NCBI GenBank assembly: GCA_003136095.1
Contig: PNBO01000456.1
Span: 822-64,255, forward strand
DNA: 63,434 nucleotides
Source of the DNA: Myxococcales bacterium
Lineage (GTDB): Bacteria; Myxococcota_A; Polyangia; Fen-1088
Reading direction: 5' to 3'
Each line of letters starts with the position of its first letter. The stretch's first letter is position 1. This document shows, one piece after another, positions 21,267 through 24,964 of this stretch. Position numbers and translations under genes: made by a program. The notes under the pieces are model-generated. The model was not told the origin of the DNA. It saw nothing but the letters and a program-made list of their open reading frames with translations, and made no database searches.

Positions 21267-21977
21267 TCAGCCGGCATGCCGGCGCGGGCCCAACAGGCGG
21301 GGCAACTCCGCCAGCGCCTCCTCGATGGTCGGCGGTTCCTCGCACTCGCGCGCGCGCAAGGCCTCGACGTCCTCGACCCGGCCGGCCAGGACGCGGGCGC
21401 GATTCGCCGCCTGGCGTACCCCTTGATCGTCCATCCAGGTGCTGGGATCGCCGTCCACGGGAATGATGCCATGCGGGTCGCTTCCTGGAGAGCTCAAGGG
21501 GATGGGCGACAGGTCGGCCTTGGGGCGCGGGGTGGTTACGGGCACGCCGCCCGAGGGAGTTCGGAGCGGCGGCGCGGCCTTGTGGGCGAGCAGGCGTTCG
21601 AGTGTGGGACGGCTAGCGGGCGCCACGGCCAGGAACTGCACGCCCATGCCGTGGGCGCGCTGGGGTTCCTGCGGGTTGAACTCGCGCACCCACGCCACCT
21701 TGCCGCTTCCGACGAGCAACGGGGGGCCTTGCATCAGGGAAACCTCGAAGGCGATGACGTTGCCGACCGGGAAAGGAGTGCGGCTGGCGAGGAAGATGCC
21801 TCCGCGGGTCACATTGGGGGCGAAGCGCTGGATAAAGGTGTTTTCGTCGGGATAACGAAGTTGCAGGCGGACGAGGGGAACGTCTGGCGGCGACACGGCT
21901 GCTAGTATCGGATGGCCAGAAGCAAGGGTCAACCCCGCGCTCACCCTGGGGCGCGATCTCGTGTAGGCTCGGGCCAT
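21267..21977 (-). CDS. PilZ-family protein, Myxococcus TIGR02266-like
   Basis: 236 residues. The core (about 33-125) reads LVRLQLRYPDENTFIQRFA, NVTRGGIFLAS, GSGKVAWVREF and HGMGVQFLAV, the pattern of the TIGR02266 subgroup of PilZ domains frequent in myxobacteria. The classical RxxxR c-di-GMP motif is not obvious, so binding is doubtful. The rest is a Pro/Ser-rich, probably disordered tail ending in a short helical segment. The N-terminal ~30 residues lack conservation and the ATG at 21977 has no good ribosome site, so the true start may be further in. Confidence 0.7.
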   Translation of the reverse strand: MARAYTRSRPRVSAGLTLASGHPILAAVSPPDVPLVRLQLRYPDENTFIQRFAPNVTRGGIFLASRTPFPVGNVIAFEVSLMQGPPLLVGSGKVAWVREFNPQEPQRAHGMGVQFLAVAPASRPTLERLLAHKAAPPLRTPSGGVPVTTPRPKADLSPIPLSSPGSDPHGIIPVDGDPSTWMDDQGVRQAANRARVLAGRVEDVEALRARECEEPPTIEEALAELPRLLGPRRHAG

Positions 21978-22288: not shown

Positions 22289-23992
22289 CTACCTAAAACT
22301 CATCGACCAGCTGGCGATGGTGTTCTTGCCCTTGTACGACGGGAAGCCGAACGACTGCATCTGATTCAGGACACACATCGGCATGGCGCCCCTGCCCTGG
22401 CCGTTGACTTGCACCTTGCTCACTCGTCCGGTCGGTTGGATGACGAAATCTATCTCGATCGAGCGGACGCCACCCTGCATGGCGCAGGGGACGATTCTGC
22501 GGTAGTTGGCGCGCATCACGCGGTCGACGGTGCCCTCGTCGAGGATGGCGTCGCCGCCTTCCTTGGTGACGTCTCCGAGGTCCAGGTTGTTGGCAAAGTC
22601 CTCGGGGCGGCCGGCCACCCCGCCACCTACGCCCCGCCGTCCTCGACCGCCGGCATGCTTGGGCTGCGCGAACTCGACCTTGACGCCATTCAAGAACTTG
22701 TCGACGTCCGCTTCGCTCACCCGCATGGCGAGGCTGTCGTCCTTGGCGGCCTTGCGATCCTTTAGGTAGAGCCACATGCCCGCGCCCACCGCGGCCAGGG
22801 CGAGGCCGATGATGAGGACGAACCAGCGGCCCTTGCGGCGCTCGGTGTGCTCGTGGGCGGCCTCGGCACGCGTCCGGCGTTGCGCTTCCAGCTTACGCTC
22901 GACCACCCGGGTGAATTCCGCGAGTTGGGGATGATCCTTGATCTTCTGCCGGTCGCCCGAGTCGGCATCGACGATGAAATGGTCGCCGTTGAAGATGCCC
23001 TTCTCCATCTGGGCCATGACCTGCGCCAGCGAGAAGGGGCCGAAGTCCAGACTGTCCTTCTGCACGAGCCAGCGCTCGTATTCCTCGGAGATGCGGACGG
23101 CGTCGGAAACGCTGAAGGACTTACCCAGCGTGAGGCGCGGGGTGGTCATGACCTTGTCCGGCTTGGCCGTGCTGCCCGAGAGCAAGGCGCCGATCTCGGC
23201 GACGAGCAGCGAGGGACGGGCGAAGCGGGTTTCCGGCAGGGAGGCCAGGCCACGGTCGATGAGCTTGTCGATGCCCCTGGGCAACTCGCCATTGACCTGG
23301 CTGGCGGGCCACGGCGGCGTGCCCGGCGCGTGGCCGGTGATCAGTTCGTAGAGGACCGCCGTGAGCGAGAAGACGTCGGCCGGGGGCGAGGGCGCCGCCC
23401 CGGCGGCGACCTCGGGGGCCATGTACGGGCTGGCAGTTTGTCCTTCGGGAGCGTCTATGCGTGCGAGCGCCGGGAGGGCGCGCGTCAACCCCAGGTTCGC
23501 GACCTTGATCCGGCCCGAGCTGCTCAGGCGTAGAACGGCGGGATGTACGCCACCATGGCACATGTGGGGGTAGCTAGCCTCAAGGCCGTTGGCGGCATGG
23601 CCGAGCAGCACATGCGCGTGGGCAAGCCCCACCACCTGGTTCTGCGCGCGCCGGGAGTTGATGATCTGCCGGAGCGTGGCCCCGTCAAGCGCCTCGGTCG
23701 CCAGGTAGGCGCGATCGCCTTCGTAGCCCCAGGCGAAAACCGTGGCTAGATTCTTGTGCGTGACCGCCGCGGCGTGCGTGAGATCGCTCTCCAGCACCGC
23801 GCGTAGCGCTGGCGCGCAGGGAAACAAGCGCAGCAGAGCAGGCTTGTCATCGCGCGTGTCTTGCGCCTGGTACAACTCCGTGCCGGCTTCGTTCCGCACG
23901 AACGCCTGGATCTGAAATCGGCCACCAATCACGGTAGCAAGCGGAAGCGACTGGGCGGCCCCTGCTGGATCCATTGAGACTGGGTCGTTCAT
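22289..23992 (-). CDS. Pseudokinase - GYF_2-like - TM - AgmX/PglI-like membrane protein
   Basis: 567 residues. Residues about 20-275 have the Ser/Thr protein kinase fold (GGRFQIQAF, YMAPEV with the intact APE, PADVFSLTAVLYELITG), but the catalytic residues are gone. The beta3 Lys is Arg55 (ALLRLF), HRDLKP is HGGVHP (146-151), and DFG is NLG (166-168). A region at about 304-360 (LDFGPFSLAQVMAQMEKGIF) resembles GYF_2 domains. One membrane helix spans 390-410. The C-terminal ~100 residues (MRANYRRIVPCAMQGG, VIQPTGRVSKVQVNGQG) match the TonB-like AgmX/PglI domain linked to gliding motility in Myxococcus. I infer a non-catalytic sensor or scaffold with a cytoplasmic kinase fold and a periplasmic AgmX-like domain. 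Confidence 0.82.
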   Translation of the reverse strand: MNDPVSMDPAGAAQSLPLATVIGGRFQIQAFVRNEAGTELYQAQDTRDDKPALLRLFPCAPALRAVLESDLTHAAAVTHKNLATVFAWGYEGDRAYLATEALDGATLRQIINSRRAQNQVVGLAHAHVLLGHAANGLEASYPHMCHGGVHPAVLRLSSSGRIKVANLGLTRALPALARIDAPEGQTASPYMAPEVAAGAAPSPPADVFSLTAVLYELITGHAPGTPPWPASQVNGELPRGIDKLIDRGLASLPETRFARPSLLVAEIGALLSGSTAKPDKVMTTPRLTLGKSFSVSDAVRISEEYERWLVQKDSLDFGPFSLAQVMAQMEKGIFNGDHFIVDADSGDRQKIKDHPQLAEFTRVVERKLEAQRRTRAEAAHEHTERRKGRWFVLIIGLALAAVGAGMWLYLKDRKAAKDDSLAMRVSEADVDKFLNGVKVEFAQPKHAGGRGRRGVGGGVAGRPEDFANNLDLGDVTKEGGDAILDEGTVDRVMRANYRRIVPCAMQGGVRSIEIDFVIQPTGRVSKVQVNGQGRGAMPMCVLNQMQSFGFPSYKGKNTIASWSMSFR

Positions 23993-24045
23993 CGGGAAGA
24001 GCGGACATTATAGGCCCGCCCTCTGCGGGCTTGGCCACCAAAAAA

Positions 24046-24666
24046 CTAAGAGAGTTTGAAACGTCGAACTAGCTCACGCAAGCGCCGCGAACCGCCGCCT
24101 TCCCGAAACATGAATTTGACCCCCGTTTGTCCGGAACCTGCGTGGTAGAGGACGCGCCCGGAAATGGACATCGGCGCGATTCCTCCGGGGGGAACGATAT
24201 CGAGAATCACGTCGGTGCCGATGGGGGGCTGCACGTGCGTCGCGACCAAGCCACCACTCACGCTGATCTCGCGCAATTCGGCCTCGACCGGGTCTGGCTC
24301 GTTGCTCACGCGCATGCGCACACCCAGCCCGACCGGGATGCGGGTGTGCTTGCGCTTAAGGGTGGCCTGCCGTGCCCCCATCAGGGTTTCGAGGACGAAA
24401 TCGCGCTTCGAGGCCTCCTCGGGCGCAAAGCGGACCAAGGCCCCGGCCCGGATGCGCAGCCGGGGCAGGGCCGGCCGCCACGAAAGCACGACGCCGCGGA
24501 CCAGAACCTTGTTGGGCAGACCCTTGCAGGCGATCTCGACCACCACGGGGGATTCGTTGGCAAGCTCGGTCGTCGTCGGGCAAAACAGGATCCCGTCGGG
24601 ATGATCGCTATTGTAGAAGCTACGGAATTCCTCCGCGCTTCGACAGCGGACTCGGAGAATGTTCAA
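24046..24666 (-). CDS. PilZ-domain protein, two tandem beta-barrel units
   Basis: About 206 residues from a TTG at 24666, chosen because GAGAGAGGG lies 5-6 nt upstream and the frame before it overlaps the neighbouring gene remnant without homology. The first ~90 residues (RCRSAEEFRSFYNSDHPDG...) form a divergent PilZ-like unit. The second unit has the RxxxR signature as RKHTR and the following motif as EISVSGG, where the usual Asp/Asn is Glu. It ends in GVKFMFRE. A c-di-GMP receptor is likely, though the D/N-to-E change could weaken binding. It is probably tied to motility or surface regulation like the nearby PilZ gene. Confidence 0.75.
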   Translation of the reverse strand: MNILRVRCRSAEEFRSFYNSDHPDGILFCPTTTELANESPVVVEIACKGLPNKVLVRGVVLSWRPALPRLRIRAGALVRFAPEEASKRDFVLETLMGARQATLKRKHTRIPVGLGVRMRVSNEPDPVEAELREISVSGGLVATHVQPPIGTDVILDIVPPGGIAPMSISGRVLYHAGSGQTGVKFMFREGGGSRRLRELVRRFKLS

Positions 24667-24743
24667 AGTCGCCCTCTCTCGCAAACGAACGGCACTGTGG
24701 CTTGCTGACTCGGTCTGTACTAGCTTCGTCCACCCTCCCAGCC

Positions 24744-24964
24744 ATGTCAATCCGTGTCTACATCGACGGTCGAGTCCACGCGCCCGGCCAGGCCATGGTT
24801 TCCGCGTTCGATCGGGGATTTCTCGTCGGCGACCCGGCGACGTCTTCCTTACCAGCGCGGTTCGTGGGATCTTGCCGGTCACGACCGTGGACGCGGTTCG
24901 CGTCGGCGGCGGCCGGCCGGGCTCGCTCACGCGTCGACTCCTGGCCCTCTACCAACGCTGGTGA
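24744..24964 (+). pseudogene. Remnant of a class IV aminotransferase (internal deletion)
   Basis: The ATG at 24744 begins SIRVYIDGRVHAPGQAMVS and AFDRGFLVGD, the N-terminal motif of branched-chain/D-amino-acid/ADC-lyase type class IV aminotransferases. Directly after, in another frame, the sequence gives DVFLTSAVRGILPVTTVDAV and GRPGSLTRRLLALYQ, the C-terminal motif of the same family, ending at a TGA. The central ~200 residues, including the PLP lysine, are missing. The junction has the direct repeat GGCGAC (24828-24833 and 24836-24841), consistent with a slippage deletion. The product cannot be a working enzyme. Confidence 0.8.

Follow-up and report, generated by a model that had tools for sequence, protein, structure and literature searches.

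A conserved Myxococcota pseudokinase family on a GltJ-type membrane anchor

Introduction

Bacterial pseudokinases have been little studied, and a gene from a Myxococcales bacterium raises the question of what a kinase fold without any of its catalytic motifs does on a membrane anchor of the type seen in a gliding protein, and whether such a loss is maintained or simply marks a decaying copy. The gene lies in a stretch of 63,434 nucleotides (contig PNBO01000456.1 of assembly GCA_003136095.1, positions 822 to 64,255), referred to here as the window. A first-pass annotation had described its product as a four-part chain, consisting of a kinase-like domain, a GYF_2-like part, one TM helix and a periplasmic AgmX/PglI-like C-terminus, and had suggested that the loss of the kinase motifs was maintained and that the protein might be linked to c-di-GMP. 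The comparisons described below show that the protein belongs to a real, conserved and uncharacterised family, which unites a membrane pseudokinase with a GltJ-type transducer. A 2025 review recognizes seven bacterial families composed entirely or mostly of pseudokinases, none with the present architecture (PMC12599244), and we found no description of a pseudokinase–GYF–TM–TonB-like arrangement in the open-licence literature.

Results and Discussion

Domain organization of the window protein

The 567-residue ORF opens with ATG and reads from 23992 to 22289. The first-pass reading of this ORF was right, and to it we add the strand, which had been left unstated: the gene is on the minus strand. 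Profile searches and structure models both confirmed the proposed four-part chain. The product is a kinase-shaped protein that is unable to act as a normal kinase and is anchored through the inner membrane. Its parts are as follows.

22289..23992, minus strand: pseudokinase–GYF–TM–TonB-like protein, 567 aa (ORF and translation; orthologues phylum-wide)
23168..23935, minus strand: kinase-like domain, residues 20-275 (Pfam Pkinase E 5e-12; AlphaFold2 pLDDT ~90; PknA TM-score 0.80)
22907..23086, minus strand: GYF domain, residues 303-362, ERWLVQKDSLDFGPFSL... (fold match to the GltJ GYF domain 7z3c; dN/dS 0-0.04)
22763..22825, minus strand: single TM helix, residues ~390-410 (hydrophobic stretch WFVLIIGLALAAVGAGMWLYL, within a predicted helix spanning 358-411)
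22292..22543, minus strand: periplasmic AgmX/PglI (TonB-CTD-like) domain, residues 484-567 (NF033768; TonB C-terminal domain folds; Cys503 and Cys540)

With respect to the kinase-like part, the Pfam Pkinase match covers residues 75-223 and lies above the cut-off. Modelling of the domain, which the first-pass annotation had proposed as a check, returned a kinase fold: an AlphaFold2 model built with 32 orthologues reached a pLDDT of about 90 across most of residues 20-272, and its best PDB match was PknA (4ow8), with a TM-score of 0.80 by target length and an rmsd of 3.1. Stk1 and PknB were further top matches. All three catalytic motifs are gone from the window protein exactly as had been described, and the fold markers said to be kept, namely APE at 192-194 and the segment D206-V-F-S-L, are indeed present.

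23828..23830, minus strand: Arg55 in place of the beta3 (VAIK) lysine (orthologue alignment: Arg 38/84, Lys 11/84)
23540..23557, minus strand: HGGVHP (146-151) in place of HRDLKP, with loss of the catalytic Asp (HRD Asp 0/84, H-G 82/84)
23489..23497, minus strand: NLG (166-168) in place of DFG (orthologues: Asp 55/84, Asn 11/84)
23411..23419, minus strand: APE (192-194), kept (orthologues: P 79/84, E 78/84)

The modelled fold, with its two lobes, the APE motif and the conserved C-lobe Asp and Arg, places the domain in the Hanks-type protein kinase superfamily. Judged from its sequence, the window protein would not count as an active Ser/Thr protein kinase, as it possesses neither the HRD Asp nor the pairing of beta3 Lys with DFG Asp.

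In the remainder of the chain, the individual profile matches of the window protein are sub-threshold (Pfam GYF_2, E 0.024; NCBIfam myxo_SS_tail, NF033768, the AgmX/PglI C-terminal domain, E 1e-4). Among 18 orthologues, GYF_2 was detected in six; NF033768 matched all 18 tails scanned (best E 1e-11), and the GltJ model NF033761 matched 13 of the 18 (best E 3e-19). When the GYF-TM-tail half was modelled separately from the kinase part and compared by fold with the PDB, the first match was the GYF domain of Myxococcus xanthus GltJ (7z3c; probability 1.00, E 0.03, a weak value), after which TonB C-terminal domains appeared among the top matches. Weak fold E-values are expected for small domains, and both predicted folds agree with the prediction from sequence. 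The tail match came by fold comparison only, as searching the PDB with the tail sequence gave nothing useful. Cys503 and Cys540 were both present in each of the 30 aligned tails that span the two positions, and these residues probably form a disulphide in the periplasmic domain.

An old and maintained loss of catalytic motifs

A protein search matched all 59 relative genomes, a result for which an ordinary kinase alone suffices; as orthologues we counted only ORFs that hold a kinase-like part together with the GYF/tail part. Every one of the 18 genomes in the window's family has such an ORF, in some cases truncated by contig ends, as do many genomes from the other families of the class, with identities running from 96% to ~28%. 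The first-pass annotation had also proposed a search for the same architecture. Profiles of both halves recovered 93 ORFs across Myxococcota in which the order of the two parts is the same, and the named contigs among the carriers belong to metagenome-assembled Myxococcales, Myxococcota and Kofleriaceae genomes. With the profile of the GYF-TM-tail half, 132 of 284 phylum genomes were matched at E <1e-10, some of these matches being GltJ proteins.

Motifs were counted in 84 non-redundant orthologues that contain both lobes. The HRD Asp occurs in none of them, and 82 have H-G at this site. The beta3 Lys is found in 11, with Arg in its place in another 38, and 55 have the DFG Asp. On the question of whether all orthologues have lost the motifs, the answer is thus divided: the HRD Asp is lost throughout, but the losses of Lys and of the DFG Asp are specific to lineages. 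Lys occurs together with D-x-G in only three orthologues, so that some lineages may still bind nucleotides, and the Asn of the catalytic loop occurs in 12. H146, D206 and R256 are each invariant (84/84).

In a tree of kinase domains, all 85 pseudokinases formed one clade with a support of 1.0 and with no active kinase inside it, the comparison being with 21 active kinases found near the loci rather than a full kinome. For the window gene and two same-genus orthologues, dN/dS was 0.17-0.18 overall, with values of 0.18-0.19 for the kinase part and of 0-0.04 for the GYF domain. The first-pass view that the loss is maintained holds on three counts, namely the complete absence of the HRD Asp, the single clade and the purifying selection on the kinase part. 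It is well supported by these sequence comparisons that the motif loss is old and that the family is ancient and Myxococcota-wide.

Erosion has gone further in two other families, where seven ORFs (L162-L167 and L172) have an unrecognisable N-lobe and have lost H-G but retain GYF and tail; L163, the one of the seven that was tested, gave no Pfam kinase match. Together with the loss of the HRD Asp, the single clade and the purifying selection, these eroded N-lobes suggest that the fold is kept without a need for catalysis. An apparent fusion of PilZ2 (see below) with the pseudokinase (L006:664-3171, 836 aa) was set aside as most likely an assembly artefact, as its junction contains NN.

PilZ genes beside the window gene

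Two PilZ genes had been reported next to the gene, and both are there, flanking it on the same strand.

24046..24930, minus strand: PilZ2, upstream PilZ protein (Pfam PilZ E 1e-7; TIGR02266 in two stretches)
21267..21977, minus strand: PilZ1, second PilZ protein, downstream (Pfam PilZ E 5e-6; adjoins in same-genus genomes)

PilZ2 is composed of a degenerate N-terminal PilZ part and a C-terminal PilZ with RKHTR...EISVSG, and RxxxR is confined to the C-terminal one. Its ORF start (GTG) is uncertain and probably too early. Coverage extends to the upstream side of the gene in 17 genomes of the window's family; PilZ2 adjoins the gene in 16 of these, the exception being G004, and RxxxR...ExSxxG is retained in all 16 copies; the motif pair of c-di-GMP binders is RxxxR and [D/N]xSxxG. 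In no other family examined was PilZ2 found at the locus. The suggested tie to c-di-GMP therefore stands as an association at the level of the family and does not extend to the other families. Within the genus, the gene is followed by PilZ1 and then Rex.

PilZ2 and the pseudokinase gene are separated by 53 bases (window 23992-24046), which contain a hairpin and TATAAT. The gene may accordingly have its own promoter, and co-transcription with PilZ2 is not certain; a consensus scan yielded nothing firm. In the sister genus the gap is longer and has conserved stretches, perhaps a promoter with a very short leader.

A kinase upstream and a phosphodiesterase-type protein downstream in other families

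Outside the window's family the neighbors are different. In 12 loci, mainly of Kofleriaceae type, the gene directly upstream of the pseudokinase encodes a kinase that retains HRD and has a hydrophobic TM segment. Most of these upstream kinases have VA[IV]K, and in several of the 12 loci the two reading frames are 3 bases apart. In many loci a 7TM-HD protein (Pfam HD plus 7TM-7TMR_HD, PgpH type) and a HEAT-repeat protein are encoded downstream, and one other family has a small YscJ/FliF-type protein there.

Upstream-kinase loci: L122:7036-10563; L062:7404-10823; L060, L080, L107-L110, L115, L116, L118, L119
7TM-HD and HEAT-repeat loci: L064:4134-8857; also L058, L063, L090, L117, L121
YscJ/FliF-type loci: L069:8663-9295; also L081, L082, L088

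The upstream kinase and the pseudokinase form a candidate bacterial kinase–pseudokinase operon, and its recurrence with a working kinase makes it a concrete, testable pair. The locus of the window's family lacks the partner kinase, and in the window's own genome none of the ~50 kinase segments clearly bears its outer part. None of the 18 genomes in the window's family contains a member of the 7TM-HD family, which is present in 29 of the 41 others. A link between 7TM-HD and c-di-AMP was sought through co-occurrence with diadenylate cyclase and proved uninformative, since the cyclase is nearly everywhere (56 of 59 genomes overall, 17 of 18 in the window's family).

Relation to known proteins

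The closest likeness is to GltJ (AgmX, MXAN_4862), a gliding protein of M. xanthus whose gene group was confined to Myxococcales and Bdellovibrionales in a 2011 survey (PMC3169522). Both proteins have a GYF domain, one TM helix and a periplasmic AgmX/PglI (TonB-CTD-like) domain. They differ at the N-terminus, which is a pseudokinase in the window protein and a zinc finger in the GltJ-like protein of the same genome. The window gene was also absent from the NF033761 matches in its own genome at 1e-5. Considered as a possible GltJ equivalog, the protein has the predicted GYF domain and TM plus TonB-like part, but it has no N-terminal zinc finger and does not reach the NF033761 cut-off (450 bits).

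Among membrane pseudokinases, MviN (MurJ) of Mycobacterium tuberculosis, a member of the ActPs3 family, has likewise lost all three motifs, and its phosphorylation by a true kinase creates a docking site (PMC12599244). ActPs3 proteins, however, have an activation-loop deletion, a fully degraded HRD and no HG motif, whereas the present family keeps H146 in 84/84 orthologues and the APE segment. The membrane part of MviN is a flippase, in contrast to the GltJ-type tail of the window protein. The mycobacterial case prompted us to consider a tie to MurJ, which we rejected: MurJ in the window is a separate protein a few genes off, on the other strand and beyond Rex and PilZ1, and it is near the gene in only part of the window's family. 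EssB/YukC of type VII secretion also carries a cytoplasmic pseudokinase on a single-span membrane protein and functions as a scaffold, but it is found in Firmicutes and is not described with a GYF or TonB-like domain (PMC12599244). GLW, CP1 and DLHK are further bacterial kinase folds with degraded Lys/HRD/DFG, none of them described with GYF or TonB-like domains (PMC12599244). GLW proteins have the GLW motif in place of HRD, unlike the HGG of the window protein and the H-G of 82/84 orthologues, and CP1 and DLHK are without TM regions (PMC12599244).

Possible functions

The explanation that we favor, in which we place about even confidence, is that the protein serves as a docking module without catalysis, mounted on an envelope transducer of the GltJ kind, and that other lineages pair it with an active kinase. 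The pseudokinase in the cytoplasm would offer a surface for docking or switching, and the GYF domain would bind a proline-rich partner; coupling of a cytoplasmic event to a partner in the envelope would fall to the TonB-like domain. In several lineages the partner on the inside may be the catalytically intact membrane kinase encoded upstream, which the pseudokinase would serve as a paired subunit or as a substrate. In the window's family the likely input would be the neighboring PilZ2, which has the RxxxR of c-di-GMP binders; as the kinase is absent from this locus, any kinase pairing there would need to act in trans. Much more tentatively, these components could belong to a widespread Myxococcota envelope complex that joins the GltJ/TonB-type dead kinase to the active membrane kinase and a PgpH-type cyclic dinucleotide phosphodiesterase, with a PilZ protein taking the place of these inputs in the window's family.

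An appreciably weaker contender than docking on a transducer is a purely structural role: the protein would be a component of a Glt-like or Tol-like envelope machine, with the pseudokinase merely holding it in place in the cytoplasm and passing no signal. Such a role would account for the GltJ architecture of half the protein and for the two families in which the kinase part is further eroded and GYF and tail are retained, and the window's own genome does encode GltJ-like and GltG-like proteins; the recurring neighbors, however, are signaling proteins (active kinase, 7TM-HD, PilZ) rather than motor genes. Of these neighbors, 7TM-HD and PilZ2 invite the thought of a cyclic dinucleotide adaptor with no tie to phosphorylation, which would respond to c-di-GMP by way of PilZ2 here and to c-di-AMP by way of 7TM-HD in other families. 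We consider this unlikely: although 7TM-HD genes stand at the loci of several families and diadenylate cyclase is as common as noted above, the window's family has the cyclase in 17 of 18 genomes yet lacks 7TM-HD, and no cyclic-nucleotide-binding site was recognised in the pseudokinase protein itself.

Less probable than either the structural role or the adaptor, and in our estimation quite improbable, is an unconventional enzyme whose kinase fold transfers AMP or another group in the manner of SelO. The replacement of HRD by H-G does resemble the SelO loop H-G-x-x-x-x-N (PMC12599244), and the DFG Asp persists in 55 of 84 orthologues, but these proteins share no conserved set of polar active-site residues (Lys 11/84, loop Asn 12/84, Lys with D-x-G 3/84), and an enzyme of this kind is hard to reconcile with the two families whose N-lobe is unrecognisable though GYF and tail remain. 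As for a functionless, decaying kinase copy, the window protein taken by itself, without any of the three motifs, could have suggested one. The orthologue comparison refutes this explanation and leaves it a negligible probability, given the loss of the HRD Asp in 84/84, the single clade, the purifying selection and the intact reading frames.

The present family is thus an ancient, phylum-wide case of a pseudokinase on a gliding-protein-type membrane anchor. Its variation among lineages, with Lys kept or lost, the N-lobe eroded and the partner changed, constitutes a natural series for the question of why pseudokinases persist. A gene for NAD(P)H-hydrate epimerase/dehydratase lies farther downstream in the window's family and in distant families alike, which marks these as one ancestral locus.
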